Below, piece after piece: positions 11,971 through 58,299 of a DNA stretch of 58,299 bases. Origin of the DNA: a virus; IMG/VR virus record IMGVR_UViG_3300020060_000002, positions 1-58,299 of that record. One strand, 5' to 3'. The notes beneath the pieces are model-generated. The model was given only the letters and a program-made list of their open reading frames with translations. It was not told where the DNA came from and did no database searches. The position numbers and the translations under genes were made by a program. The stretch's first letter is position 1. Each line of letters opens with the position of its first letter.

Positions 11971-12449
11971 CCCGACAGGTCGCCAACAACGGCAAGAGTC
12001 CAGCCACCGCCAGGGCTCGCGCGAGCGTCAACGGCCAGAAGATGCTCGAGCGCGTGGCGGCCGGCATGACCATCACCGAGGCCGCGAAGTCCGTCGGGGT
12101 CAGTCGCAGGCACGGTCAGGACCTGTATCAGCGCCAACTCCAGTTGGCCATGGAACAGAACAATGACCTGCGACAACACTTGATCGCACAGGATCTCGAG
12201 ACGTTGAGACTCCTCGCCCGTGCGCACATGGGCTTGGCGCTCAGCGGTGACACGCAGAGCGCCAAGGTTGTGCTTGCGTGCCTCGACCGCCGGGCGAAGC
12301 TGCTCGGGCTCGACGCCGCGGTCAAGGTCGAGATCAGCCAAGGGAAGATCAACGACACGGTCGATGAGATCGTCGGCCTACTCGATGACGCCAGCGACGA
12401 CGAACTGGCCACCGTGCTCATGATCGAGAGTGCGAGGAAAATCGGGTGA
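11967..12449 (+). CDS. terS: Terminase small subunit
   Basis: 160 residues. The N-terminal part has a helix-turn-helix (QKMLERVAAGMTITEAAKSVGVSRRHGQDLYQR, about residues 23-56) like other DNA-recognising small terminases. A long helical middle (LRQHLIAQDLETLRLLARAHMGLAL) probably forms the oligomer core. The C-terminus (IVGLLDDASDDELATVLMIE) may bind the large subunit. It overlaps the large terminase gene by 4 bases. It would recognise the pac or cos site, which I could not locate. Confidence 0.85.
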   Translation: MTRQVANNGKSPATARARASVNGQKMLERVAAGMTITEAAKSVGVSRRHGQDLYQRQLQLAMEQNNDLRQHLIAQDLETLRLLARAHMGLALSGDTQSAKVVLACLDRRAKLLGLDAAVKVEISQGKINDTVDEIVGLLDDASDDELATVLMIESARKIG

Positions 12450-14224
12450 GCTTGGACGCCGACATCCGGGCTCGGCTGGACAAGCTGTCACCAGCCGAGA
12501 GGCGTCTCGCAGAGATCAGGCTCCGTCGCATCGCCCGTCGCAAGCGCGCGCTGCGCAGGTTCCCCACGCCGGGACACCTCGCGAAGTTCCTGCATCCCGA
12601 CACTGTGCAGACGGCGCTCATGGCCCGGCTTGACCAGGTGGCTCTCGAGTGCGACGCGGGCCTTCAGCGACGGTGGCTCATCTCCACACCACCGCAGGAG
12701 GGCAAGACCCAGCGGATGGCGCTGGCGACCCCGCTGTGGTTTCTGCTCAGGGATCCCTCGCGGCGCATCGCGCTCGCCAGCTACGAGCAGGGCCTGGCGG
12801 CGCGCTCCGGCCTGGCGGCGCGGCAGGCCATCGAGTCCTATGGCGGTGGCTACAAGGGCGACCGCCATGCTCGCGACGACAACGATGACGAGCTGGGCCT
12901 ACTGCTGGACCCGGACAACGCCAAGCAGTCCAGCTGGTCACTGGCCGACGTGCCCGGCCGGCGCAACGGCGGCATCATCTCGGTCGGGGTGGGCTCGGCG
13001 TTCACCGGCCGGTCGGTGGACGTGTTGATCGTCGACGACCCGGTGAAGAACGCGAAGGACGCCGACTCCGAGGAGCAGCGCAAGGCCAGTCACGACTGGT
13101 TCCAGGCGGTCGCCGAGACGCGCCTGTCGGGCAACGCCATCGTGATCGTTATCCAAACTCGCTGGCATGAAGACGACCTGATGGGGTGGTTGCTCACCAA
13201 GGACGACGCCGAGTCCACGAAGCGCTGGGCGCGGCTGTTCGTGCCGGCCATCGCCAGCAAGACCGACGACCCGGTCGGCCGCGAGGTGGGCGAGTACCTC
13301 GACAGCGCCCGCGCACGCACGCAGGAGGACTGGGACCAGATCCGCAAGAACGTGGGCGAGCGCTGGTGGGCCGCCCTCTACATGTGCGAGCCGGCGCCCC
13401 CTAAGGGCGGGGTGTTCCAACTCGAGTGGATTCAGAACAACCGAGTCAAGGAGGTACCCGAGCTTCTGCGGACCGAGGTCTACGTGGACCCCGCGGACAA
13501 CGAGGGCACCGGCGACGAGGCGGGGATCGTCGTGGCTGCCGAGGGTGTGGATCATCGGTACTACGTCTTGGCCGACCTGAGCGACCACATGACGGTGGGT
13601 CGCTGGTTCCGGGTGGCGTTCCTCGCGGCCCTGCGGTACGGCGCCACGGCGATCCGCTACGAGAAGTCCCTGTCGGGGCTGGCTCGACAGGCGCCGCAGT
13701 CGTGGCGGGATCTGCGGCGGGAGGCGGCCAAGCTCGACGAGCTACGGAAAGCGTGGGCGTTGCCGGGGCAGGGGCAGGCATGGCCGGTTCATCCGGACGG
13801 AACGGTGATCGAAAAGACGCGCGATGTGCTGGCGCGCGACGACGCCACGCCAGCCGAGAAGGTGACCCTCGAGGCCAACCTGATTGAGCTGTGGCCGCTC
13901 GTCCCCAAGGTGATGGCGTTGCCGGTTTCCGGAATCTCGGTGCGCTCGTTCCCCGCCGAGGGCACGAAGACGTTCCGCGCCAAGATGGTCGGCCCGGTGT
14001 ACGAGGGCGGCCACGTGTCGCACGTCGGCCACTTCCCGACGCTCGAGCACCAGCAGGTGTCATGGCAGGAGGGGCAGGACTCACCTGACCGCATGGACGC
14101 GCTGGTGCACGCGATCACCACCTTGGCGCGGAATTCGGGTGGCGTGGAGATGTCGGGCGCACGCGGGCAGATGAACACCCGGACGACCGCCATCGCGCGG
14201 GCCGGCGCCACCGGGCGACGCTGA
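12446..14224 (+). CDS. terL: Terminase large subunit
   Basis: 592 residues from GTG 12446. ATPase: a Walker A-like PPQEGKT at about residues 82-88, Walker B VDVLIVDDP at about 191-199 followed by the SEEQRKASHDWF segment, and motif III VIQTRWHEDD. Nuclease: YVDPADNEGTGDEAG at about 345-360 with the first Asp, and SPDRMDALVHA near residue 547 with the last acidic residues. This is the packaging motor that cuts concatemers and drives DNA through the portal. Complete length; no intein here, unlike the portal gene. Confidence 0.95.
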   Translation: MSLDADIRARLDKLSPAERRLAEIRLRRIARRKRALRRFPTPGHLAKFLHPDTVQTALMARLDQVALECDAGLQRRWLISTPPQEGKTQRMALATPLWFLLRDPSRRIALASYEQGLAARSGLAARQAIESYGGGYKGDRHARDDNDDELGLLLDPDNAKQSSWSLADVPGRRNGGIISVGVGSAFTGRSVDVLIVDDPVKNAKDADSEEQRKASHDWFQAVAETRLSGNAIVIVIQTRWHEDDLMGWLLTKDDAESTKRWARLFVPAIASKTDDPVGREVGEYLDSARARTQEDWDQIRKNVGERWWAALYMCEPAPPKGGVFQLEWIQNNRVKEVPELLRTEVYVDPADNEGTGDEAGIVVAAEGVDHRYYVLADLSDHMTVGRWFRVAFLAALRYGATAIRYEKSLSGLARQAPQSWRDLRREAAKLDELRKAWALPGQGQAWPVHPDGTVIEKTRDVLARDDATPAEKVTLEANLIELWPLVPKVMALPVSGISVRSFPAEGTKTFRAKMVGPVYEGGHVSHVGHFPTLEHQQVSWQEGQDSPDRMDALVHAITTLARNSGGVEMSGARGQMNTRTTAIARAGATGRR

Positions 14225-16279: not shown

Positions 16280-16693
16280 ATGCGACGACTCGACGCGTTT
16301 CTGATCTCCAAACGTCCGTACGCGGTAGACCTCGCGAGCCTGCGCACGCGAATCCAGCCTCACGCCGACGGCACGCATTTCTGGACGTGCAACGTCGATG
16401 CCGTGTGGTTCCGCAAGAAGAACCATCTACTCGCGGCCTGCATGGGTGTTCTCTGGGATCTCCAAGAGCCTGAGCCCTCGACCGTTGAGAAGTTCATGGA
16501 GCGACACACCGACGGTCGCTACGGCGGCACCACGATGGGTCGCTGGGACGGCAAGCGCTACTGGGGCAATGGCGTGACGCTCGAAACCCAGCGGGAGCAC
16601 CTCGAGATCCTGCGCCCCATGCTCGAGCACTACCCCGACGTGCCGGCCGGCTACGACGGCTGGTGGACCTTCGCACCCAGGAGTGACCGATGA
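16280..16693 (+). CDS. Hypothetical protein
   Basis: 137 residues directly following the previous stop. It contains HFWTCNVDAVWFRKKNHLLAAC and a C-terminal GYDGWWTF. It is rich in Trp and charged residues. No family recognised. It is joined to the MazG-like gene by a 4-base overlap. Confidence 0.72.
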   Translation: MRRLDAFLISKRPYAVDLASLRTRIQPHADGTHFWTCNVDAVWFRKKNHLLAACMGVLWDLQEPEPSTVEKFMERHTDGRYGGTTMGRWDGKRYWGNGVTLETQREHLEILRPMLEHYPDVPAGYDGWWTFAPRSDR

Positions 16694-18893: not shown

Positions 18894-20759
18894 CTACGAG
18901 GTGCGGACCGGCTCGATGCTGGCGCCATCGCCGTAGTGCCAGACACCATTGCGGCTGTGCGCCCGACGCACCTCCTTGTGGGTGCTGAGCTTGCGATAGA
19001 CGGTCGCCCGGCTCGGCATCCCTGGCAGCTTGGCCAGTTCGTCCGCGGTGTGCGGCCCCTCGTCCTTGAGCACCTGGAGGATGGCGTCGAGCGGCTCCTC
19101 CCGCTCGACCGGCATGTCGATGACCATCGCACCGCTGGTCTCAGTGAGCGCGGCCCATGCGACCGGCTCGAGTGCGGGACGGCCGAGTTCCACCGCGGTG
19201 GTGATGATCTGGCGGCGGTCCTTGGGCGCGACGAAGAAGCCCTTCGCGATGGCCGGCGTGGTGTGTTCGTTGTCGCGCAGCAGGAACTGGCCGTTGCGGA
19301 GTCCAGCTGAGTTCCACCCCTGGCGGACCAGCTCGCCCCACAGGACCTTGCTGGCGTGCGGGTCCAGGCCCAGGCCCACCACCGCGCGCAGCTGGGCCTG
19401 GAACTCCTTGGACCCCACATCCTCCTTGGACCCGTTCTGCGCGAGCGGGAGGATGCGGACTCCACACTTGCGAGCCCGCTTGCCGATCCGGCCGATGAGG
19501 CGGACCACCTCCTTGTCGCCGGCTGCCACGAGGTCCGGGTACTCGTCGATGACCAGGACCACCCAGGGGCGGTCCGGACTCGGCTGGAACTCGTCGCCGG
19601 CATCGTCGGACTCCTCCTTGTCCAGGCCCAGCTGGCGCTCGCGGACCTCGATGACTGCGAGGATCCGCTCGAGAGTCCACTTCGCGGAGTCCAGGTCCGC
19701 CGCGAGCGGGAGTGCCAGGACCCGGCGCCACATGCCGAGGGTGGCGCCGCCGGCCATGTCGATCCCGACGATGACCACGTCCCGGCAGGCGAGCAGCCAG
19801 ATCAGCAGCGACTCGAGCCAGACCGACTTGCCTGAGCCGGTCTGGCCCACGATCAGCGTGTGCTGGAGCGTGTATTTCAGCTCGGTGGCGTCGGCGAGCA
19901 TCCCCATGACGAACTTGAAATTGAGGGCGCGCAGGGTCGTTGATGCAGGTCGGGGCATCGGGTGGGCGATCTTGCCCTTCCACGGGTCCTTGGGCAGGAA
20001 CGAGAACCACACGTGCCGGCCGGACTCCTCGTCCGCGCTGGCGAACACCGCGCCAGGTCGCAGGCCGTAGTAGCTGGCCAGGGCGTCAGTCGCACGCGTG
20101 ACCGCCGCCGGTGTCACGCCCTCAGCGAGTTTGATGCGCATCTTGGCGATGGCGCCTGCCGAGACGAGCTTGACCGGGTCGGACCCGGCGAGGGGTCGTA
20201 GCTCGATGGCTGGGGTCTCGCCCCGCTTGATCTTGCCCCAGCGACGTGCGTACCGGTCCGCCCGGCCGGCGATGCGGACTCGTCGATGCCACCACCAGAT
20301 GCCGCCGAGGACCAGCACGCCGAGCTGCCACAGGGCACCGGACAGGACCGAGGGTCCGGACCCGATGCGGACCGCGAGGTAGGTCCCGGTCCAGGCGAGT
20401 AGGACCGCGAGGTAGGTCCGCTCGGTCGGCCGGTCGAGGACTCCATTGGTCCCGCGGTCCAGTCCCTCGGGGACCACCAGCATCACCAGAGTCCGGACCC
20501 GGTCCCCGAGTCGCGGACCCAGGACCGCCAGGACCGCACCGAGGACCGGGAGCAGAAGTGCGGTCCACCACCAGCCGGACCAGTGCCAGCGGACCAGGAC
20601 CGCGGTGAGCCAGACCCCGCCACCAACCCACAGTGGGGTGAGGACCCGGCGCCAGCGCCAGGCGAGTCGGCGGGATCCACGCATACCCGCCCGGATGGCC
20701 GCGAAGATCAGCACCCCGAGCGCGACCTTGAATGCCGAGGTGGACTTCTGCTTGCTCAT
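18894..20759 (-). CDS. FtsK/TraB-like DNA translocase
   Basis: 621 residues. The N-terminus has about four membrane helices (residues about 45-80 and 118-160). The motor domain has Walker A GQTGSGKS at about 303-310 and Walker B VVLVIDEYPDL at about 400-410, with LPLAQNG and QAQLRAVVGLGLDP typical of FtsK-HerA ATPases. The C-terminal 60 residues are a winged helix (TADELAKLPGMPSRATVYRKLSTH), as in FtsK gamma and TraB, which read DNA motifs. Such proteins move dsDNA through a membrane pore; stand-alone versions with DUF2637 partners belong to actinomycete plasmids and integrative elements. The first third is packed with GGWCC motifs. Confidence 0.9.
   Translation of the reverse strand: MSKQKSTSAFKVALGVLIFAAIRAGMRGSRRLAWRWRRVLTPLWVGGGVWLTAVLVRWHWSGWWWTALLLPVLGAVLAVLGPRLGDRVRTLVMLVVPEGLDRGTNGVLDRPTERTYLAVLLAWTGTYLAVRIGSGPSVLSGALWQLGVLVLGGIWWWHRRVRIAGRADRYARRWGKIKRGETPAIELRPLAGSDPVKLVSAGAIAKMRIKLAEGVTPAAVTRATDALASYYGLRPGAVFASADEESGRHVWFSFLPKDPWKGKIAHPMPRPASTTLRALNFKFVMGMLADATELKYTLQHTLIVGQTGSGKSVWLESLLIWLLACRDVVIVGIDMAGGATLGMWRRVLALPLAADLDSAKWTLERILAVIEVRERQLGLDKEESDDAGDEFQPSPDRPWVVLVIDEYPDLVAAGDKEVVRLIGRIGKRARKCGVRILPLAQNGSKEDVGSKEFQAQLRAVVGLGLDPHASKVLWGELVRQGWNSAGLRNGQFLLRDNEHTTPAIAKGFFVAPKDRRQIITTAVELGRPALEPVAWAALTETSGAMVIDMPVEREEPLDAILQVLKDEGPHTADELAKLPGMPSRATVYRKLSTHKEVRRAHSRNGVWHYGDGASIEPVRTS
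20170..20660. repeat. Dense GGWCC motif array inside the translocase gene
   Basis: By eye about 24 GGACC or GGTCC words occur in these 490 bases, and about 40 in the whole gene, against roughly 2 and 7 expected from base composition. Recurrent 8-mers include AGGACCGC. The words fall in all three codon phases, so codon bias alone does not explain them. The terminase gene of similar length has only about five. Confidence 0.6.
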
Positions 20760-21499
20760 GCCGACTCCTCCGTCTCGTCCGCGGTCTCACCCTTGACGAC
20801 TCGCAGGATCTTGAGCGCCCGGTTGGACCCGATCCCCAGCTCCCGCATGACCAGCCGCTTGCCGATCTCGGCACCGGTCGTTTCGAGCAGTGCGCGAACG
20901 TCCTCGATCAGCTCGTCATCGGTGCGTCCGCCACGCGGCGCCCGGGTTGTAGGCGTCGCCGTGACGCTTCTCGGCGCGGCCGGCTCGGCTACCTCTCGCG
21001 GTACCGGCGTCAGCTTGGTAACGGTCGACACCGGCGTGTCGGTCCGGGTCGCCTGAACCTTCTTCGGAGCCCTGCGCGCGGCCCGCTTGTTCTCTCGCTC
21101 CAGCTGGGCGGCCGCACGCTCCTCGTTCCCGCGGGCGTTGCTGTGCGTCACGCCGAGGACCGCCGCGAGGGCGATCGGCGGGATGGCGCCGAGGCCCATC
21201 GCGAGCGGGTCGGCGGACCGGACCGCCCAGTCCAGGATGTTGCCGGCCAGGGACACGGTGATGGCCGCGAGGGCGAGAACCCGGCCCAGCTTCCACGCTG
21301 GCGCCCGGGTCATCCAGATGTCCATACCGAGCGCGGCGACCGCGTCGATGCAGAGCGGGAACATCCAGCTGAGCGGGCCGAACCCGACGTGCTCGGCGAG
21401 GTTGCTCAGGGCATCGAAGGACCACACCGCGGCCACGGCGATGACCAGGGTGGCGAGGAGCCGCCGGAACAGGAGCCGACTGTTGCCGCGGATCTTCAC
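20756..21499 (-). CDS. DUF2637 (Spd-like) membrane protein with C-terminal HTH
   Basis: 247 residues from GTG 21499 with GGGAGGAG upstream on the minus strand. Four membrane helices fill residues about 10-120 and carry the DUF2637 signature (AVWSFDALSNLAEHVGFGPLSW, MFPLCIDAVAALGMDIWMT). A linker rich in Ala/Pro/Thr follows, then a C-terminal helix-turn-helix (DDELIEDVRALLETTGAEIGKR, then ELGIGSNRALKILRVV). DUF2637 proteins accompany FtsK/TraB translocases on actinomycete plasmids, where Spd proteins aid intramycelial spread. It overlaps the translocase start by 4 bases, so both are made together. Confidence 0.85.
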   Translation of the reverse strand: MKIRGNSRLLFRRLLATLVIAVAAVWSFDALSNLAEHVGFGPLSWMFPLCIDAVAALGMDIWMTRAPAWKLGRVLALAAITVSLAGNILDWAVRSADPLAMGLGAIPPIALAAVLGVTHSNARGNEERAAAQLERENKRAARRAPKKVQATRTDTPVSTVTKLTPVPREVAEPAAPRSVTATPTTRAPRGGRTDDELIEDVRALLETTGAEIGKRLVMRELGIGSNRALKILRVVKGETADETEESA

Positions 21500-21675
21500 G
21501 GCCGCTCCTCCCTGCTCCAGGCGCGGTGGCCGTCGCGACGCTCTCGTGCGTCCCGGAAGGGCAGCCACACCACGTAGCCGATGAACAGGAATGCGGCCGG
21601 CACGGCGTTCCCGGTGGCCAGGAGCGCCAGCAGGGCGACGGCCGCCGCAAGCGCGACGATCGATCGAAGGGTCAT
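21496..21675 (-). CDS. Small membrane protein, first gene of the transfer-type module
   Basis: 59 residues on the minus strand, with two hydrophobic helices (SIVALAAAVALLALLATG and AAFLFIGYVVWLPF) and a charged tail. It overlaps the DUF2637 gene by 4 bases. ATG 21675 lies 7 bases after a TAGACT box, so it is probably leaderless. It resembles the small Spd-type membrane proteins of plasmid transfer operons in size and place only. Confidence 0.75.
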   Translation of the reverse strand: MTLRSIVALAAAVALLALLATGNAVPAAFLFIGYVVWLPFRDARERRDGHRAWSREERP

Positions 21676-26435: not shown

Positions 26436-26593
26436 GGCTGTTCTGGACGCCGCTGATGCTCGCGGGCGGGACGGTGCTGTCGTTCCTGTACCAGCCGGGG
26501 GTGACCATGCTGGCGATCGTGGGTGGTGTGGTCACCTACGTGGCGACCCGCACGGTCATCACGTTGCGGCACGCGAAGGCGGGAACTCGATGA
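26432..26593 (+). CDS. Small membrane protein
   Basis: 53 residues from ATG 26432 (ATGA overlap). Two short hydrophobic segments (LMLAGGTVLSFLY and MLAIVGGVVTYVATRTV) and a basic tail (LRHAKAGTR). It is probably in the cytoplasmic membrane. It resembles small actinophage membrane proteins in size only. Confidence 0.6.
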   Translation: MRLFWTPLMLAGGTVLSFLYQPGVTMLAIVGGVVTYVATRTVITLRHAKAGTR

Positions 26594-26856
26594 GCGTCAC
26601 TGTCCAAGTTGGTCGCGTGGATCTCATGCGACCCCTTGCGCGAGTGGGCCACTCTCGTGATAGCGTGTGCATGTTCCACTTCGCAGTGGCAGCAACGGTT
26701 TCGGCGGCTACCGCGCCTCGCGTAGGAACTGCTGGCGCCGAATGCTACACAGCAGGTGGAACACCGAACGCCCCGCTTGGTGTAGCGCACACCGAGGCGG
26801 GGCGTTCGTGTGTAACCCCCTCGCGCGGTGGGTCGGAGAGTAGGTTCGGGCGATGA
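26590..26856 (+). CDS. Doubtful ORF overlapping the structured RNA
   Basis: 88 codons open in an ATGA overlap with the previous gene and close in an ATGA overlap with the next. This would normally support it. However, its codon use is poor, and 26661-26807 looks like a promoter, a folded RNA and a terminator. I list it as a low-confidence alternative to the RNA reading. Confidence 0.25.
   Translation: MSVTVQVGRVDLMRPLARVGHSRDSVCMFHFAVAATVSAATAPRVGTAGAECYTAGGTPNAPLGVAHTEAGRSCVTPSRGGSESRFGR
26636..26666 (+). promoter_or_regulatory. Promoter with palindromic spacer for the 26.7-kb RNA
   Basis: TTGCGC at 26636-26641, a spacer containing the perfect dyad GAGTGG-G-CCACTC (26642-26654), and TAGCGT at 26661-26666. 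The spacer is 19 bases, slightly long. The predicted start falls near G26673. Confidence 0.5.
26673..26807 (+). ncRNA. Candidate structured small RNA
   Basis: The predicted transcript begins at about 26673 with GTTCCAC, which pairs with GTGGAAC at 26756-26762 to close a 90-base domain. Inside are CTGCTG...CAGCAG (immediately before the closing strand) and smaller hairpins. A terminator stem (26766-26776 with 26797-26807) follows. The 90-base closed domain recalls a class II tRNA, but the D- and T-arms and anticodon loop rules fail, so I do not call it a tRNA. Confidence 0.5.
26766..26807 (+). terminator. Terminator of the 26.7-kb RNA
   Basis: An 11-bp perfect stem (26766-26776 with 26797-26807), continued inward by a second short stem (GGTGT with ACACC). 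It is followed by GTGTGTAACC. Confidence 0.7.
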
Positions 26857-27185
26857 TCCAGGTACTCAAATCTTGGTGGCCCGCAAGCGTCTTTCTGCCC
26901 GGTGGGCACTCTTGGCACCGCACGCTGGTGTTCGCCACCAACGACGACTTGCGCGTCTATGCGCGCCGCGGCGAGCCCTACGACTGGGCATCGCCGATCG
27001 ACTTCGAGACCACGGTGGAGCCGCGGCAGTTCCGCACCCATGTGGGCATCGACATCACCACTCTCGCCGGCCTGGTGGTGGTGACTCCGACGGGTGGCTG
27101 TGGTTGCGGCAACCCGCTGAAGACGTGGCGGCCCGACTGGGCGAGCAACGTCGCCGCATGGCCGGCGCCATCATCCAAGATGTGA
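26853..27185 (+). CDS. Hypothetical protein
   Basis: 110 residues from ATG 26853; TAGGTT lies 6 bases upstream, so it may be leaderless. The sequence is Trp-rich and beta-like (HRTLVFATNDDLRVYARRGEP, THVGIDITTLAGLVVVTPTG) with a CGCG motif near residue 84. No family recognised. Confidence 0.7.
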   Translation: MIQVLKSWWPASVFLPGGHSWHRTLVFATNDDLRVYARRGEPYDWASPIDFETTVEPRQFRTHVGIDITTLAGLVVVTPTGGCGCGNPLKTWRPDWASNVAAWPAPSSKM

Positions 27186-31776: not shown

Positions 31777-34700
31777 ATGGCAGCCACCACCCGCAAGTCA
31801 CCCCCCAAGAAGGCGGTCAAGCCGGCGCCCCCGATGCCCAGCTTGACCGCCTCCGGCGAACAGGTCGACCTCTCCGACAAGCAGCTCACCCAGAAGATCC
31901 ACCGCCAGCGCGCCCCCTGGCAGCAGCTCGCGTGGAACTACCGGGAGCTGATCGGCGAGCTGGGCTCCGGCATCGAGTACGAGGCGAACATCGTCTCCAA
32001 GGTGCACTACGTGGTGGGACAGGTGTCCGACGAGGACGAGCCCACCCTGCCGACGAGCGATGAGTACAAGCTTCCCGATCACGTACAGCGCGCCGCCCAG
32101 GAAGCCCTCGACGCCCTGCCGTTCCGCAACGGCTACGCCTTCACCGGGGTGCTGTCCACCTGCCTGCGCGTCACCGGCGAGGCGTGGCTGCACGGCCGCA
32201 CCGAGAAGCGCCGCGAGATCTGGAGCGTGCTGTCCTCCGACGAGGTGACCCCGGTCAACAACACGCTGGGGATCGTCGACATGCCCGGCACGCCGCCGCG
32301 GCCGGTCGACAAATCCAAGGAGGTGTTGCTACGCCTGTGGAAGCCGCATCCCCGGTGGAAGCGGCTCGCCGATTCCCCGCTGCGCAGGATGCTCGACACG
32401 TGCGAGGACATCGTCCTGATCGGCCGGGAGCTGCGTGCGGCCGCACGGTCCCGGGTGGCCGCCAACGGGATCTTGCTGGTGCCCAACGAGCTGTCGGTGG
32501 TGCGCAAGCCGGACGGCAGTAGCGACGACTTCCAGACCGAACTGGAAATGACCTTGCTCGCGCCGATCGCCAACGAGGGCGACGCGGGCGCGGTGGTGCC
32601 GGTGGTGCTCAAGGGACCGGCCGACCTGCTGGAGAAGGTCCGGCACATCACCCTCCAGCGCGAGGACGCACCCCAGCTGATCGAGAAGCTGGAGTCGGCC
32701 CTACGCCGCCTGCGCGAGGGCATGGACATGCCGCCCGACGCCGGGCAGTCGGTGGCCGACATGAACCACTGGTGCGTCGACACCGACACCGAGATTCTTA
32801 CCCGGCGTGGCTGGCTCACCGAGGGCCAGCTAGAGGTGGGGGACGTGGCGCTCACGCTCAACCACGACACCGGCCTGTCCGAGTGGGCACCCGTACTTGA
32901 CATCTACCGGGCCGACGTGCGCGCCGAGCCGATGACCGCGCTGCGCACCCGAAACCACGACAGCCTCACCACCGCAGGGCATCGGTGGCCCGTACTGCAC
33001 GGTGGCCGGCGGGACTGGACCACCACAGACCAGCTGACCAGCGGGCATGGCATCACGATGGCCGCACCATCTGCTGACCTGCCCGAGGTCGCGAAGTGGT
33101 CCGATGACCTGGTCGAGCTGGTCGCCTGGTTCTGGACCGAAGGCAGCTACCAGCCCACGCCGTGTATCGCCCAGTCGCATAGTCGCAACCCTGAGCGGGT
33201 GGCTCGCATCCGCGTGCTGCTGACCCGCATGTTCGGGCCGGCAAGTACGACGCTGCGCGGCACCGGATGGCCAGCCTGGCGCGAGAAGGTGCAGGCCAAT
33301 GCCGGTTCGTACGGCGGCCCGGTCACCGTGTTCTACCTCAACCAGTATGCGGCTGCCGAGCTGCGCGGGATTGCGCCGGACAAGCGCGTGGACCCGCACT
33401 GGGTGACTGAGCTGACCATGGCCCAGTTGGCGCTGTTCATCGACGTGTCCGGTCAGGGCGACGGCCAGCACTACCGGTCCGGCTCGGCCGACATGTGGCA
33501 GGCCCGTCCGGACGCGCTGGACGCCTACGAGCTGGCACTGATCCTCTCCGGCCGGACGGTTCGCCGGAGTGATGCCGGCCGCCGGGTTGGCGTGTGGCGC
33601 CAGTCCACCGCGCGTCCGGTTAAGGCCGCACTCCAGGCGGCCGGCGCTGGCGGGCGAGCCGAGATGCGTACTCGCTGGTACACGGGCACGGTGTGGTGCC
33701 CGGTGACCCGCAACGGGACGTGGTTTGCACGTCGTGGCGGCACCAGCTACTACACGGGCAACAGCGCCTGGTCGGTGAGCCAGGAGAACTGGAAGAACTA
33801 CCTCGAGCCGCACACCCGGCTGATCGTCGACTCCCTCACCGAGGCGTACCTGCGGCCCTCGCTGATGATGCCGGCCGGAAAGGGCGGGTGGGGCCTGAGC
33901 GAGGACGAGGCCGACCTCGTCCAGGTGTGGTACGACGCCGGCAACGTCACCGAGAACGCCAACCGCGCCATGGACGCCCGGGAGCTGTACGACCGCGGCG
34001 AGGTGGGGGGCGAGTACCTGCGGACCTCACACGGCGCCAGCAAGGGGGATGCGCCCACCGATGAGGAGATGCGGCGCATGATCACCTGGAAGGCGTCCCA
34101 GTCCATGTCGCCCGAGGTGGTGCAGGCCCTCATCGCCCAGGCCATCGGCGGGGATGGGGTGAGCGTCAACGGCCAGTCGACGCCGACACCGCGAGCGATC
34201 GAGGTCTCGCGACCCGAGTCGTCCGGCGAGACCACCAGCGGGGCGCCCACGTCCGGCACGTCGGGCACCCAGCCCACCCAGCCGGTCCCGAGCGGCGTGG
34301 TGGCTGCGGTAAATCCGCAGAGGGTACTCGATTCAGTGACGCTCCTGAGCGGTGATCGACTGGCCGAGATCGAGCGCGCCCTGCGCGACCGCCTGGTGGT
34401 GGCCGCCGACGACGCCCTGGTACGCGCCCTCGAGAAAGCCGGCTCTCGCGTCCGAGCATCGTTGCAACAGAAGGACAAGACCCTCGCCGCCGACGTGAAG
34501 GGCCTGGCCGCCGAGGACGTGTGCCCACTGGTGGGCCAGGCCCGGATCGCCGAACTCGGCATCCGGGAAGACACCCTGCTCGGGCGGGCGTTCGACTACC
34601 TGGCCAAGAAGTTCACCGCGTGGACCACGCAGGCGGTCCGGGATGTGGCGCGCACGGTCGCCGACCTCGCCGGCCTGACCCTGCCGCAGGTCGCCGCGCT

Positions 34701-35340
34701 GGTGAGCAAGCTCAGCGCGCGCATCCCAACGGCGTGGAAAACGCTGGAGGCCCGACTTCAAGCCCGTGCGCTGGATCGGCTGTACGGCCGCGGCGGGGAC
34801 GAGGAGCGCGGTGAGATCCCCGACACCATCGTCTCGCCCGGCGACATCCGGGCCGCCCTGTCGGAGATCGGTGGTGCGGCCGGCACCGATGGCGCGCAGG
34901 CCGGTGGGCTGGCGCTCGGCACGGACGTGACCGGGGTGATCGACGAGCAGGCCGATCGGGTCGGGTTCTCCTGGAAGTACGGGATCACCCCCCGCGAGCG
35001 CCAGTTCGAACCGCACCGCCAGCTCAACGGCCACCGGTTCGAGAGCTGGAGCGACGCGGGCCTGGCAACCAACGCGCAGACGGCCTGGGTGGGCACGCAC
35101 TACGCCCCCGGCGATCACGACGGTTGCCTCTGTGACTACGTGCCGACGTGGGCGATCCTGGAGACGTTCGGCACCATCGACCAGGAGATCGAGCCGGAGA
35201 ACGTTGGCTCGATCTCCGACCGGGTACTGGCCCAGCTGGACGACGCCGCCGGACGGCGTGGCACGCACGCCCAGCGCAACCGTGACGAGCGGGACCGGAT
35301 TTTGGCAGTCCAGCGCGAATGGATGGAGCTGACGACATGA
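31777..35340 (+). CDS. Portal protein fused to MuF-like domain, interrupted by an intein
   Basis: 1187 residues as translated; about 857 after splicing. Extein residues 1-332 and 663 to about 800 are an actinophage portal (MNHW then SAWSVSQENWKNYLEPHTRL and DSLTEAYLRP). After a Thr/Ser/Pro linker, residues about 845-1187 form a MuF-like head morphogenesis domain ending in WVGTHYAPGDHDGCLCDYVP. The portal forms the 12-subunit packaging and connector ring; MuF enters the capsid with it. The two are usually separate genes. Residues 333-662 are an intein (separate entry). GGGAGG lies upstream of the start. Confidence 0.93.
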   Translation: MAATTRKSPPKKAVKPAPPMPSLTASGEQVDLSDKQLTQKIHRQRAPWQQLAWNYRELIGELGSGIEYEANIVSKVHYVVGQVSDEDEPTLPTSDEYKLPDHVQRAAQEALDALPFRNGYAFTGVLSTCLRVTGEAWLHGRTEKRREIWSVLSSDEVTPVNNTLGIVDMPGTPPRPVDKSKEVLLRLWKPHPRWKRLADSPLRRMLDTCEDIVLIGRELRAAARSRVAANGILLVPNELSVVRKPDGSSDDFQTELEMTLLAPIANEGDAGAVVPVVLKGPADLLEKVRHITLQREDAPQLIEKLESALRRLREGMDMPPDAGQSVADMNHWCVDTDTEILTRRGWLTEGQLEVGDVALTLNHDTGLSEWAPVLDIYRADVRAEPMTALRTRNHDSLTTAGHRWPVLHGGRRDWTTTDQLTSGHGITMAAPSADLPEVAKWSDDLVELVAWFWTEGSYQPTPCIAQSHSRNPERVARIRVLLTRMFGPASTTLRGTGWPAWREKVQANAGSYGGPVTVFYLNQYAAAELRGIAPDKRVDPHWVTELTMAQLALFIDVSGQGDGQHYRSGSADMWQARPDALDAYELALILSGRTVRRSDAGRRVGVWRQSTARPVKAALQAAGAGGRAEMRTRWYTGTVWCPVTRNGTWFARRGGTSYYTGNSAWSVSQENWKNYLEPHTRLIVDSLTEAYLRPSLMMPAGKGGWGLSEDEADLVQVWYDAGNVTENANRAMDARELYDRGEVGGEYLRTSHGASKGDAPTDEEMRRMITWKASQSMSPEVVQALIAQAIGGDGVSVNGQSTPTPRAIEVSRPESSGETTSGAPTSGTSGTQPTQPVPSGVVAAVNPQRVLDSVTLLSGDRLAEIERALRDRLVVAADDALVRALEKAGSRVRASLQQKDKTLAADVKGLAAEDVCPLVGQARIAELGIREDTLLGRAFDYLAKKFTAWTTQAVRDVARTVADLAGLTLPQVAALVSKLSARIPTAWKTLEARLQARALDRLYGRGGDEERGEIPDTIVSPGDIRAALSEIGGAAGTDGAQAGGLALGTDVTGVIDEQADRVGFSWKYGITPRERQFEPHRQLNGHRFESWSDAGLATNAQTAWVGTHYAPGDHDGCLCDYVPTWAILETFGTIDQEIEPENVGSISDRVLAQLDDAAGRRGTHAQRNRDERDRILAVQREWMELTT
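32773..33762 (+). mobile_element. Intein with degenerate LAGLIDADG-type endonuclease in the portal
   Basis: 330 residues. It begins with Cys1 in CVDTDTEILTRRGW (Hint block A) and VGDVALTLNHDTG, has an NHDSLTTAGHRWPV block B with T..H, and ends VWCPVTRNGTWFARRGGTSY followed by YTGN; the next extein residue is Ser. The penultimate residue is Gly rather than His, as in several phage inteins. The middle carries LVELVAWFWTEGSYQ and LALFIDVSGQGDG, which look like the two LAGLIDADG helices, each with one acidic residue. The inserted point is the conserved NHW/SAW portal motif, a typical choice for homing elements. Confidence 0.9.
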
Positions 35341-37784
35341 CCGACGATGTTGAGAACTCCGGCATGATCGCGCTAATCCCCGCGGACCCCGGCAGGCTGG
35401 GGATTCCCGGCGGCGAGCCGGTCGACGCGCTGCACTGCACGCTCGTGTTTCTCGGCGACAGGGTGACCGAGTGGTCCGATGATCGTGTCCAAGCCTTGCG
35501 CTCGATGACGCAGCAGGCTGCACAGGCGCGCGGTCCGATCGATGCCCGCGTGTTCAGTCACAGCGTGTGGAATGCCGACCGGGCACCCAATCCGCAAGGC
35601 GAGCCAACCAAGCCGTGCTTGGTGTACCAACTTCGCGACCTCGATGGTCAGCTCCAAAGCCTGCGTGAGGTGATCGTCGATGGCGCCAGGACCGTCATGG
35701 GCGCGGACCTGCCGAAGCAGTGGGATCCGCACTTGCCGCATGTGGCGGCCGCCTACGACGAGACCGACGCAGGGAAGCTGCGTACCTCACCGGGTCCGGT
35801 CGTGCTGGCCACGTTGCGCCTGGCGATCGGCACCGAGGTGCACGACTTCCCGCTGACCGAAAACGTCGAGCTAGCTCACGATGAAGGGAAGATGATGGCC
35901 AAGCCCGCACAGGCGGCGGCGCCCGAGGCGGGCGCGCCGGAAGTCACCGTTGACGAGGACACCGGCAAGCTCGAGCTGCACTGGCCCGTGCTGGTCATCG
36001 AGGGGATGCGCACTGGCGACGGCCGGTTCATCCCGCTGGGCTCGCTCGGGCACCGCGGCCTACCCCTGCCGGTGTCCGGCCAGATCAAGACCGACGAGGG
36101 CCACAAGGGCGCCGAGGTGTTCGGGTCCATCACCAAGCTGGAGCGCCACGAGGGGCCGACCGTCACGTCCAAGGAGACGGGCAAGCCGTTCCTCGAGGGC
36201 ACTGCGGTATGGGAGGCGTGGGGCGAGGGCAACGCCGAGAGCGAGCCGGGAAAGCTGGCGATGGACGGCTACCTGCGCGGTAACTCCGCGGACCTCGCCG
36301 ACACCACATCGGTGGAGGAGCTCGCCGACGAGGACGGCAAGACCACGGTGGAGTTGCGCGGCGGGAAGATAGCCGGTACCACCCTGGTTCCGGTCCCCGC
36401 GTTCGCCGACGGCTACGTGGAGGTCAACGGCGAGCGGGTCGAGTCCACCCCGGCCACCGAGGCGCTGGTCGCCGCTGTCTCGCCGGCCGACGCGTGGACG
36501 ATCGTCGATCTCCCGCCCGAGGAGGCCGTCACCGCATCCGGCGAGGAGCCGTTCAGGCCGTCGCTGTCGTTGTTCCAGCCGCGCCAGCTTCGGGGTATCA
36601 CTCCTCTGACGGTTGAGCAGCAGGCCGACGGCACCTATGCGGTGTACGGCCACGCCGCAGACTTCGCGCGCCCGCACATCTCGTTCACCGGCCGGCGAGT
36701 GCTGGCCCGGCCAAGCCCGTCGCGCTACGTCAAGGGGTTCAACACGGGCGCGCTGCGCGTGCTCGACGACGACGGCACGGAAAGGGTCGCGGCGGTGGGC
36801 CGGCTCACCTACGGGGATGGGCACGCCGACCTGTCGCTGGATCACGTGTCGGCCAAGAAGGTCTACGACGATCCCGATCGGGCGTGGGCGTGGGTGCAGG
36901 CGAGCGACGACGCGTACGGCATCCAGGTCAACGGCGTGATCATCCCCGGCACGCCGGACGAGCGGGTGACCAAGGCCCTCGCGCATCCGGTGTCTGGCGA
37001 CTGGCGGCCCATCGACGGGCAGCTGGAGCTGGTGGCCGCGTGCTGCGTCAACACCGCCGGCATCCCCGTCCCCCGTCAGCTGGTGGCCTCAGGTCAGGTC
37101 ATGGCGCTGGTCGCGGCCGGCGCGGTGGCGCCCGCGCAGGACAACCCTCTAGTGCTGGCGCAGTCCATCGCCGCGCGGGTGGTCGAGCAGATCAACGAGC
37201 AGATGAGTGGCGTACTCAACGCGTTGGGCGAGAAGCTCGGCACCAAGCTGGGGATCGTGCTCAACGAGGACGCGTTCAAGGAGCCCGACCCGCTCGAGGT
37301 CAAGCACGCCGCGCTGGCCACCCAGTTCACGCAGGCGTCGCTGATCGACGAGTTGATGGCTGAGCACCTTGTCCATGGCATGACCGGCTGGCAGCTCAAC
37401 CTCGTCGAGACCAGGGGTGCGCTTGGACTTGCCGACCGTGGCCTACTCAACGAGCTGACCGCGTGGCACCGAACCGACGTGGCAGCCGAGCAGGAGTTCT
37501 CCCACGATGTGACCTGGCTCGTCGATCTCGAAGAGCGCGGCGAGCTGGCCAACTGGGTGTCCAAGGCCGGTGGCCTCCCGTCCTACATCAAGCGCATCGA
37601 GAAGCACCTGATCGGCAAGGGCATGACCGAGTCCCAGGCCATCGCCACCGCGGTCAACGCGGCCAAGAAGATGTGCACATCCGGGGACCTGAACTTCCCG
37701 GGGTCCCAGCAGGTCAACCCGGGCAGCAAGGCTGAGGCGTGCGCCGCGGTCGCCCAGTGGAACGCCAAGAAGGCGCAGGCGTAA
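35337..37784 (+). CDS. 2H phosphodiesterase-like domain fused to prohead protease
   Basis: 815 residues. Residues about 8-170 resemble the 2H phosphoesterase/RNA ligase fold: HCTLVFLGD supplies the first HxT, but the second motif is HVA (PHLPHVAAAYD), so the second Ser/Thr is missing. Residues about 205-360 look like the capsid maturation protease (LHWPVLVIEGMRTGDGRFIP, LPLPVSGQIKTDEGHKGAEVFG). The C-terminus (SYIKRIEKHLIGKGMTESQAI, MCTSGDLNFPGSQQVN) is a domain often appended to actinophage proteases. The protease cleaves scaffold and capsid during head maturation. The start is ATG 35337, overlapping the portal stop by 4 bases. Confidence 0.85.
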   Translation: MTDDVENSGMIALIPADPGRLGIPGGEPVDALHCTLVFLGDRVTEWSDDRVQALRSMTQQAAQARGPIDARVFSHSVWNADRAPNPQGEPTKPCLVYQLRDLDGQLQSLREVIVDGARTVMGADLPKQWDPHLPHVAAAYDETDAGKLRTSPGPVVLATLRLAIGTEVHDFPLTENVELAHDEGKMMAKPAQAAAPEAGAPEVTVDEDTGKLELHWPVLVIEGMRTGDGRFIPLGSLGHRGLPLPVSGQIKTDEGHKGAEVFGSITKLERHEGPTVTSKETGKPFLEGTAVWEAWGEGNAESEPGKLAMDGYLRGNSADLADTTSVEELADEDGKTTVELRGGKIAGTTLVPVPAFADGYVEVNGERVESTPATEALVAAVSPADAWTIVDLPPEEAVTASGEEPFRPSLSLFQPRQLRGITPLTVEQQADGTYAVYGHAADFARPHISFTGRRVLARPSPSRYVKGFNTGALRVLDDDGTERVAAVGRLTYGDGHADLSLDHVSAKKVYDDPDRAWAWVQASDDAYGIQVNGVIIPGTPDERVTKALAHPVSGDWRPIDGQLELVAACCVNTAGIPVPRQLVASGQVMALVAAGAVAPAQDNPLVLAQSIAARVVEQINEQMSGVLNALGEKLGTKLGIVLNEDAFKEPDPLEVKHAALATQFTQASLIDELMAEHLVHGMTGWQLNLVETRGALGLADRGLLNELTAWHRTDVAAEQEFSHDVTWLVDLEERGELANWVSKAGGLPSYIKRIEKHLIGKGMTESQAIATAVNAAKKMCTSGDLNFPGSQQVNPGSKAEACAAVAQWNAKKAQA

Positions 37785-58095: not shown

Positions 58096-58299
58096 TGGCG
58101 ATCGTCTCGATGCTGGACGCGGTGTTCGGCGAGCCGGCGTCCAGCGCGGAATACAACAAGCTGATCGACAACATCATCGACTTGGACGCGCGGCTCGGCG
58201 CCGTGGTGTCCGGGAGTCCGGTTAACACCAGGCTGACCACGCTCGAGACCCGCACGACCGACACGGTCACCACCGGCGGCATCGGCAACCAGCGTCTCG
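58095..58299 (+). CDS. Minor tail protein, N-terminal part (continues at base 1)
   Basis: ATG 58095 overlaps the TGA of the 842-residue tail gene. The frame is open to the end of the window and is continued, after removing the 127-base overlap, by bases 1-660. See the first entry for the full protein of about 245 residues. The last 127 bases are the repeated overlap. Confidence 0.85.
   Translation, partial: MAIVSMLDAVFGEPASSAEYNKLIDNIIDLDARLGAVVSGSPVNTRLTTLETRTTDTVTTGGIGNQRL
58173..58299. repeat. Terminal direct repeat, right copy
   Basis: Identical to bases 1-127. See the left copy; it marks a circular assembly. Confidence 0.9.

Follow-up and report, generated by a model that had tools for sequence, protein, structure and literature searches.

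A candidate gene for a rod-shaped small non-coding RNA beside the head genes of a predicted actinobacterial siphovirus

Introduction

The late leader of phage lambda comprises the pR′-tR′ unit, with its '6S' leader RNA and Q antitermination, and adenovirus VA RNA and bacterial 6S RNA, both rod-like, act by occupying a protein. Beyond the model phages, few non-coding RNAs of phages are known. The non-RepA cluster A mycobacteriophages RedRock, Alma and LadyBird have non-coding RNA origins outside any ORF (PMC7157519), and the CBASS-activating phage RNA (cabRNA) is structured and is bound by a defence protein (PMC10686824). In the open literature searched, actinophage non-coding RNAs were found only as replication origins (PMC7157519), a review of phage small RNAs (PMC12197685) makes no mention of mycobacteriophage, actinobacterium or Streptomyces, and no small RNA gene bordering an actinophage head module is described in the literature collections searched.

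Here we describe a locus, positions 26636-26812 of a 58,299-nt stretch of viral DNA (the window), that has the appearance of a free-standing gene for a non-coding RNA, and we compare it with the corresponding loci of related phages.

Results

The record is 58.3 kb of phage DNA with 68% GC. Positions 1-127 and 58173-58299 form a perfect direct repeat of 127 bp at the two record ends, and the record is therefore probably a complete genome. It encodes a portal protein, a major head protein, a tape measure protein, a terminase, an endolysin and a DnaB-like helicase, a gene set that identifies it, as judged from sequence, as an actinobacterial siphovirus with soil actinobacteria as predicted hosts. 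The candidate RNA gene sits in the non-coding gap 26594-26852, flanked by a 53-aa ORF and a 110-aa gene. The 110-aa gene has no Pfam or PHROG match, and none of its homologues was found in named phages. The elements of the locus are listed here, with L-numbers denoting related loci.

26636-26641, + strand: −35-like hexamer TTGCGC, read from the sequence, 17 nt from GATAGC and 19 nt from TAGCGT
26642-26654, + strand: perfect dyad GAGTGG-G-CCACTC in the promoter spacer, read from the sequence
26658-26666, + strand: predicted extended −10 element TGATAGCGT, with TGNTANNNT at the matching place in all 7 phages
26673-26762, + strand: rod-shaped RNA domain of 90 nt, from fold prediction, with counterparts at L006:338-437 and L007:6073-6181
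26708-26729, + strand: central apical hairpin CTACC-GCGC-CUC-GCGU-A-GGAAC, core 26713-26723, from comparison with L006, L007 and L008
26763-26811, + strand: terminator-like hairpin with an 11-bp core (26766-26776/26797-26807), z −5.5
26841-26852, + strand: predicted −10 of the downstream gene's separate promoter (TAGGTT + 6 nt + ATG, leaderless), a pattern present in most relatives
26853-27185, + strand: downstream gene, 110 aa, with homologues in all relatives compared, marking the syntenic slot

The promoter elements, complementary ends and 11-bp terminator reported by a first-pass annotation of the window are all present in the DNA. The −35-like hexamer is weak taken alone and is absent from the promoter-pattern listing. 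The spacer dyad is a possible operator; the window contains 24 perfect dyads of the 6-1-6 form, so that this one alone is not special. A C-run/G-run dyad occupies the matching spot in the RNA promoters of L006, L007, L008, L025, L027 and L029. The extended −10 is more distinctive. The background occurrence of TGNTANNNT is 0.02-0.05 per kb per strand; nevertheless, the element lies 14-16 nt ahead of the rod start in 7/7 phages, the rod starts being assigned by the analyst and those of L008 and the L025 group picked by eye.

The window also contains a phage-wide promoter class with a palindromic spacer, TTG(T/A)-CCCCCC-N5-GGGGGG-TANNNT, at positions 1131, 4194, 14713, 23246, 24464, 25347, 26249, 39347, 39825 and 41343, and the class is found in most relatives as well. 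The start codon often lies 6-7 nt past the −10 of these promoters, a spacing that implies leaderless mRNAs, and the class may perhaps share one DNA-binding regulator.

The predicted transcript opens with GUUCCAC (26673-26679), which pairs with GUGGAAC (26756-26762), 83 nt on. The domain thus closed had been read as multibranched; instead, it is predicted to fold into a single unbranched rod. Its fold energy is low for its own dinucleotide content (z about −3.6 to −3.7), and domain plus terminator together reach z = −6.4. Only 0.3% of shuffles reach the rod energy, and 0/1000 are both rod-shaped and equally stable. The 11-bp hairpin by itself is not special against chance, and it lacks the U-tract that is present in L025, L027 and L029.

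An ORF, 26590-26856, overlaps the locus, and its conservation at the protein level had been named as evidence that would count against an RNA gene. No such conservation was found. The codon-position GC of the ORF is 0.67/0.65/0.58, opposite to genuine genes here, it has no protein family match, and no counterpart was seen in L006 or L007; a coding reading was rejected on the codon composition and the missing family. The proposed resemblance to a class II tRNA, and with it a tRNA-like decoy, does not hold either: ARAGORN, the check suggested at the outset, stays negative, with 0 tRNA or tmRNA genes in the window and six relatives, and the RNA is an unbranched rod. Scans of the window and relatives with the Rfam 15 covariance models gave no match at gathering score, and permissive scans returned chance hits only. 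DNA similarity searches with the window, L006, L008 and L029 as queries gave no real match among named phages and plasmids. On sequence alone, the locus has the predicted parts of a stand-alone small RNA gene, namely its own promoter, a non-coding transcript and its own terminator.

About 40 related loci were gathered from IMG/VR by searches with the portal and gene 26853. In six relatives (L006, L007, L008, L025, L027 and L029, counted as distinct sequences, L028 repeating L027), the region immediately ahead of the 26853 homologue carries a promoter-like stretch, then a structured RNA and finally a strong hairpin, the last of these being present behind the RNA in 7/7 phages. All 7 are predicted to form, near the 5′ end, a rod or a hairpin resembling one, with the terminator hairpin behind it. 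These syntenic cassettes, together with the absence of an Rfam match, support the first-pass proposal that the locus encodes a novel small RNA, complete with promoter, closed fold and terminator. A DNA-pattern search and a gene-26853 profile search returned no further members.

The rods of the window, L006 and L007 share several features. In all three, GUUC opens the predicted transcript 6-7 nt past the −10, and GAAC closes the rod at the terminator. The rods are 90, 100 and 109 nt long, respectively, and the apex is central in each, with arms of 40/39, 44/45 and 49/49 nt. A GYGC-CUC-GCRY apical hairpin is common to the three, with compensatory changes. Among random rods from these records, window-L006 apex agreement this good occurs at a frequency of 0.0002 and the three-way agreement in 0 of 200,000 draws, in a test devised after the motif had been noticed. 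When L008 is included, 95.8% of cells in the apical helix pair and 3/6 pairs are changed on both sides. The number of shuffles that match this result is 2 to 6 out of 500 and varies with the measure; the 22-mers compared were trimmed by hand and aligned at the apex. Judged by sequence similarity alone, just the L006-L007 relationship has support (p 0.002), and window-L007 similarity is not significant. A model of the rod matches its own seeds only. Homologues of the window's rod, or of part of it, are clearly recognizable in only three sequences, with low identity among them.

The remaining three RNA-bearing relatives have a different rod in the same slot.

L025:5847-5950, L027:4774-4877 and L029:5834-5937: L025-type rod

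In this rod, 23/23 pairs are kept and 3 are changed on both sides, a modest result that 38/500 shuffles equal, while the RNAalifold structure has both-side changes in 4/28 pairs. It contains two internal loops, AGUA opposite GAA, which may resemble loop E motifs, and a GAUA apical loop. Neither sequence nor covariance model gives a signal between it and the rods of the window, L006, L007 and L008; a match in L030, antisense within a coding gene, was judged to be chance. The kinship of the L008 and L025 types to the window appears to rest mainly on position and promoter. A separate terminator-like hairpin lies ahead of the RNA promoter in L025, L027 and L029; because this hairpin precedes the promoter and a U-tract terminator follows the RNA, the RNA of these phages appears to be its own transcription unit.

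A chance fold between two operons would be helped by the high GC, at which 7.5% of the window's 90-nt segments fold equally strongly, and by the commonness of dyads in the window. Against it, a rare extended −10, a rod and a terminator co-occur in 7 phages, with compensatory changes in addition. The conservation of TGNTANNNT, the rod ends and the central apex lifts the locus above chance, unlike its single features. We consider it highly probable from these comparisons that the locus is a real RNA gene, and a chance fold highly improbable.

In the portal tree, an 18-row clade (99/98) unites the seven RNA-bearing phages with a 10-row clade in which no RNA is seen, three of these rows lacking the upstream sequence. 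The pattern could reflect a single gain plus a single loss, or else two gains. Where the RNA is absent, relatives mostly retain the terminator hairpin. A 137-aa protein (16280-16693) occurs in 3/3 large RNA-bearing and 0/4 large RNA-less genomes; it was rejected as a co-occurring partner, as the pattern is a single phylogenetic contrast and the protein has no family, a poor model and no fold match.

Adjacency to the head module, and the existence of RNA-based prophage origins in actinophages (PMC7157519), would suit a role in the virion or in DNA maintenance, either as a packaging RNA like phi29 pRNA or as an RNA-based replication origin like those of the non-integrating cluster A mycobacteriophages. 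However, the terminase (12446-14224) lies 12-14 kb from the RNA locus, and in one clade of related phages no RNA is seen in the slot. Furthermore, among the plasmid and integrated-prophage signs sought, neither ParA (AAA_31) nor a tyrosine integrase was found in 21 records, and no resolvase in the window; an origin of the cluster A type was rejected on the missing ParA. Such a role is most improbable.

Elsewhere in the window, the portal gene (31777-35340) is split by an intein-like insert of ~330 residues, without which the relatives' portals align. The product of 35319-37784 has an N-terminal part that resembles the C-termini of PHROG 'RNA ligase' proteins and is possibly 2H phosphoesterase-like, fused to a head maturation protease-like region, an arrangement kept in relatives. 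On the minus strand, 18894-20759 and 20756-21568 encode an FtsK/SpoIIIE-like protein beside a DUF2637 (excisionase-like PHROG) protein, a pairing that recalls actinomycete conjugative elements; FtsK homologues are present in all large related phage genomes compared, despite the lack of a detected integrase or ParA.

Discussion

The best explanation as a whole, to which we assign a probability of about 0.5, is a stand-alone small non-coding RNA gene whose product would act in trans through a bound protein. Host RNA polymerase would start at ~26673 from the extended −10 promoter and produce a 90-nt rod hairpin that is closed at its end and carries a constant CUC loop at its apex. Transcription would stop at the hairpin directly behind the rod, giving about 140 nt in all, and the neighbouring head operon would be transcribed from its own leaderless promoter. 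The rod RNA may then be bound in trans through rod and apical loop, with host RNA polymerase, an RNase, an RNA-sensing defence protein or a phage protein as candidate partners.

The promoter of the downstream gene bears on whether the RNA acts in cis. A cis-acting attenuated leader, at whose hairpin polymerase waits for a phage factor, or for the nascent RNA itself, to permit read-through into the head operon, would fit the order promoter, structured RNA, terminator and head genes, which is that of lambda late control, and the position kept in 7 phages; put RNA and Q antitermination are established precedents (PMC9378689, PMC6606751). However, [TG]ANNNT lies 6-7 nt ahead of the downstream gene's start codon in most relatives, RNA-bearing and RNA-less alike, placing a predicted leaderless promoter of its own just behind the terminator, and many relatives without the RNA retain both terminator and gene. 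Because of this predicted promoter, the RNA would not be an obligatory leader, and read-through from the RNA unit is probably not needed for the downstream gene. We regard an attenuated leader as unlikely, and the separate promoter therefore favours a trans-acting RNA.

How such an RNA would act is a more tentative matter. The CU(C/A) triloop retained in the window, L006, L007 and L008 could argue for antisense action, the C-rich apical loop (CCUC) of the small RNA pairing with Shine-Dalgarno-like GAGG in mRNAs of the host or the phage. This is very unlikely, however, given that a three-base loop within a GC-rich helix offers almost no single-stranded seed and that GAUA takes the place of this loop in the L025 type. 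Protein binding is preferred over long mRNA pairing because the rod leaves little single strand, its apex is conserved and the helices stay paired while the sequence changes; as a mechanism, it is plausible but short of probable. A decoy is distinctly unlikely: here a VA-RNA-like rod of constant shape and fast-changing sequence would, in the infected cell, occupy RNA polymerase or an RNA-sensing defence protein of the host, and the window, L008 and L025 types would have diverged to suit different hosts.

Within the collections searched, the rod RNA very probably represents a new family of a known kind, the phage small RNA, outside the named families. If real, a family with a constant rod shape and changing sequence would offer a defined target for studying what phages do with structured RNAs inside the host. 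The predicted shape is rod-like, as in VA RNA and 6S RNA, from which the window RNA differs in having no Rfam match and no 6S-type central bubble. Like cabRNA, it is a structured phage RNA; cabRNA, however, originates from terminase genes by transcription and sets off defence, whereas the window RNA is a separate predicted gene known from its sequence. Like the cluster A origins, it is a non-coding actinophage RNA outside any ORF, but those span several hundred bp next to parABS, and no ParA was found here. Finally, it shares with the lambda late leader and HK022 put RNA (PMC9378689) a promoter, a short structured RNA and a terminator before phage genes, and it differs from them in that its downstream operon has its own predicted promoter and the RNA forms one closed rod.
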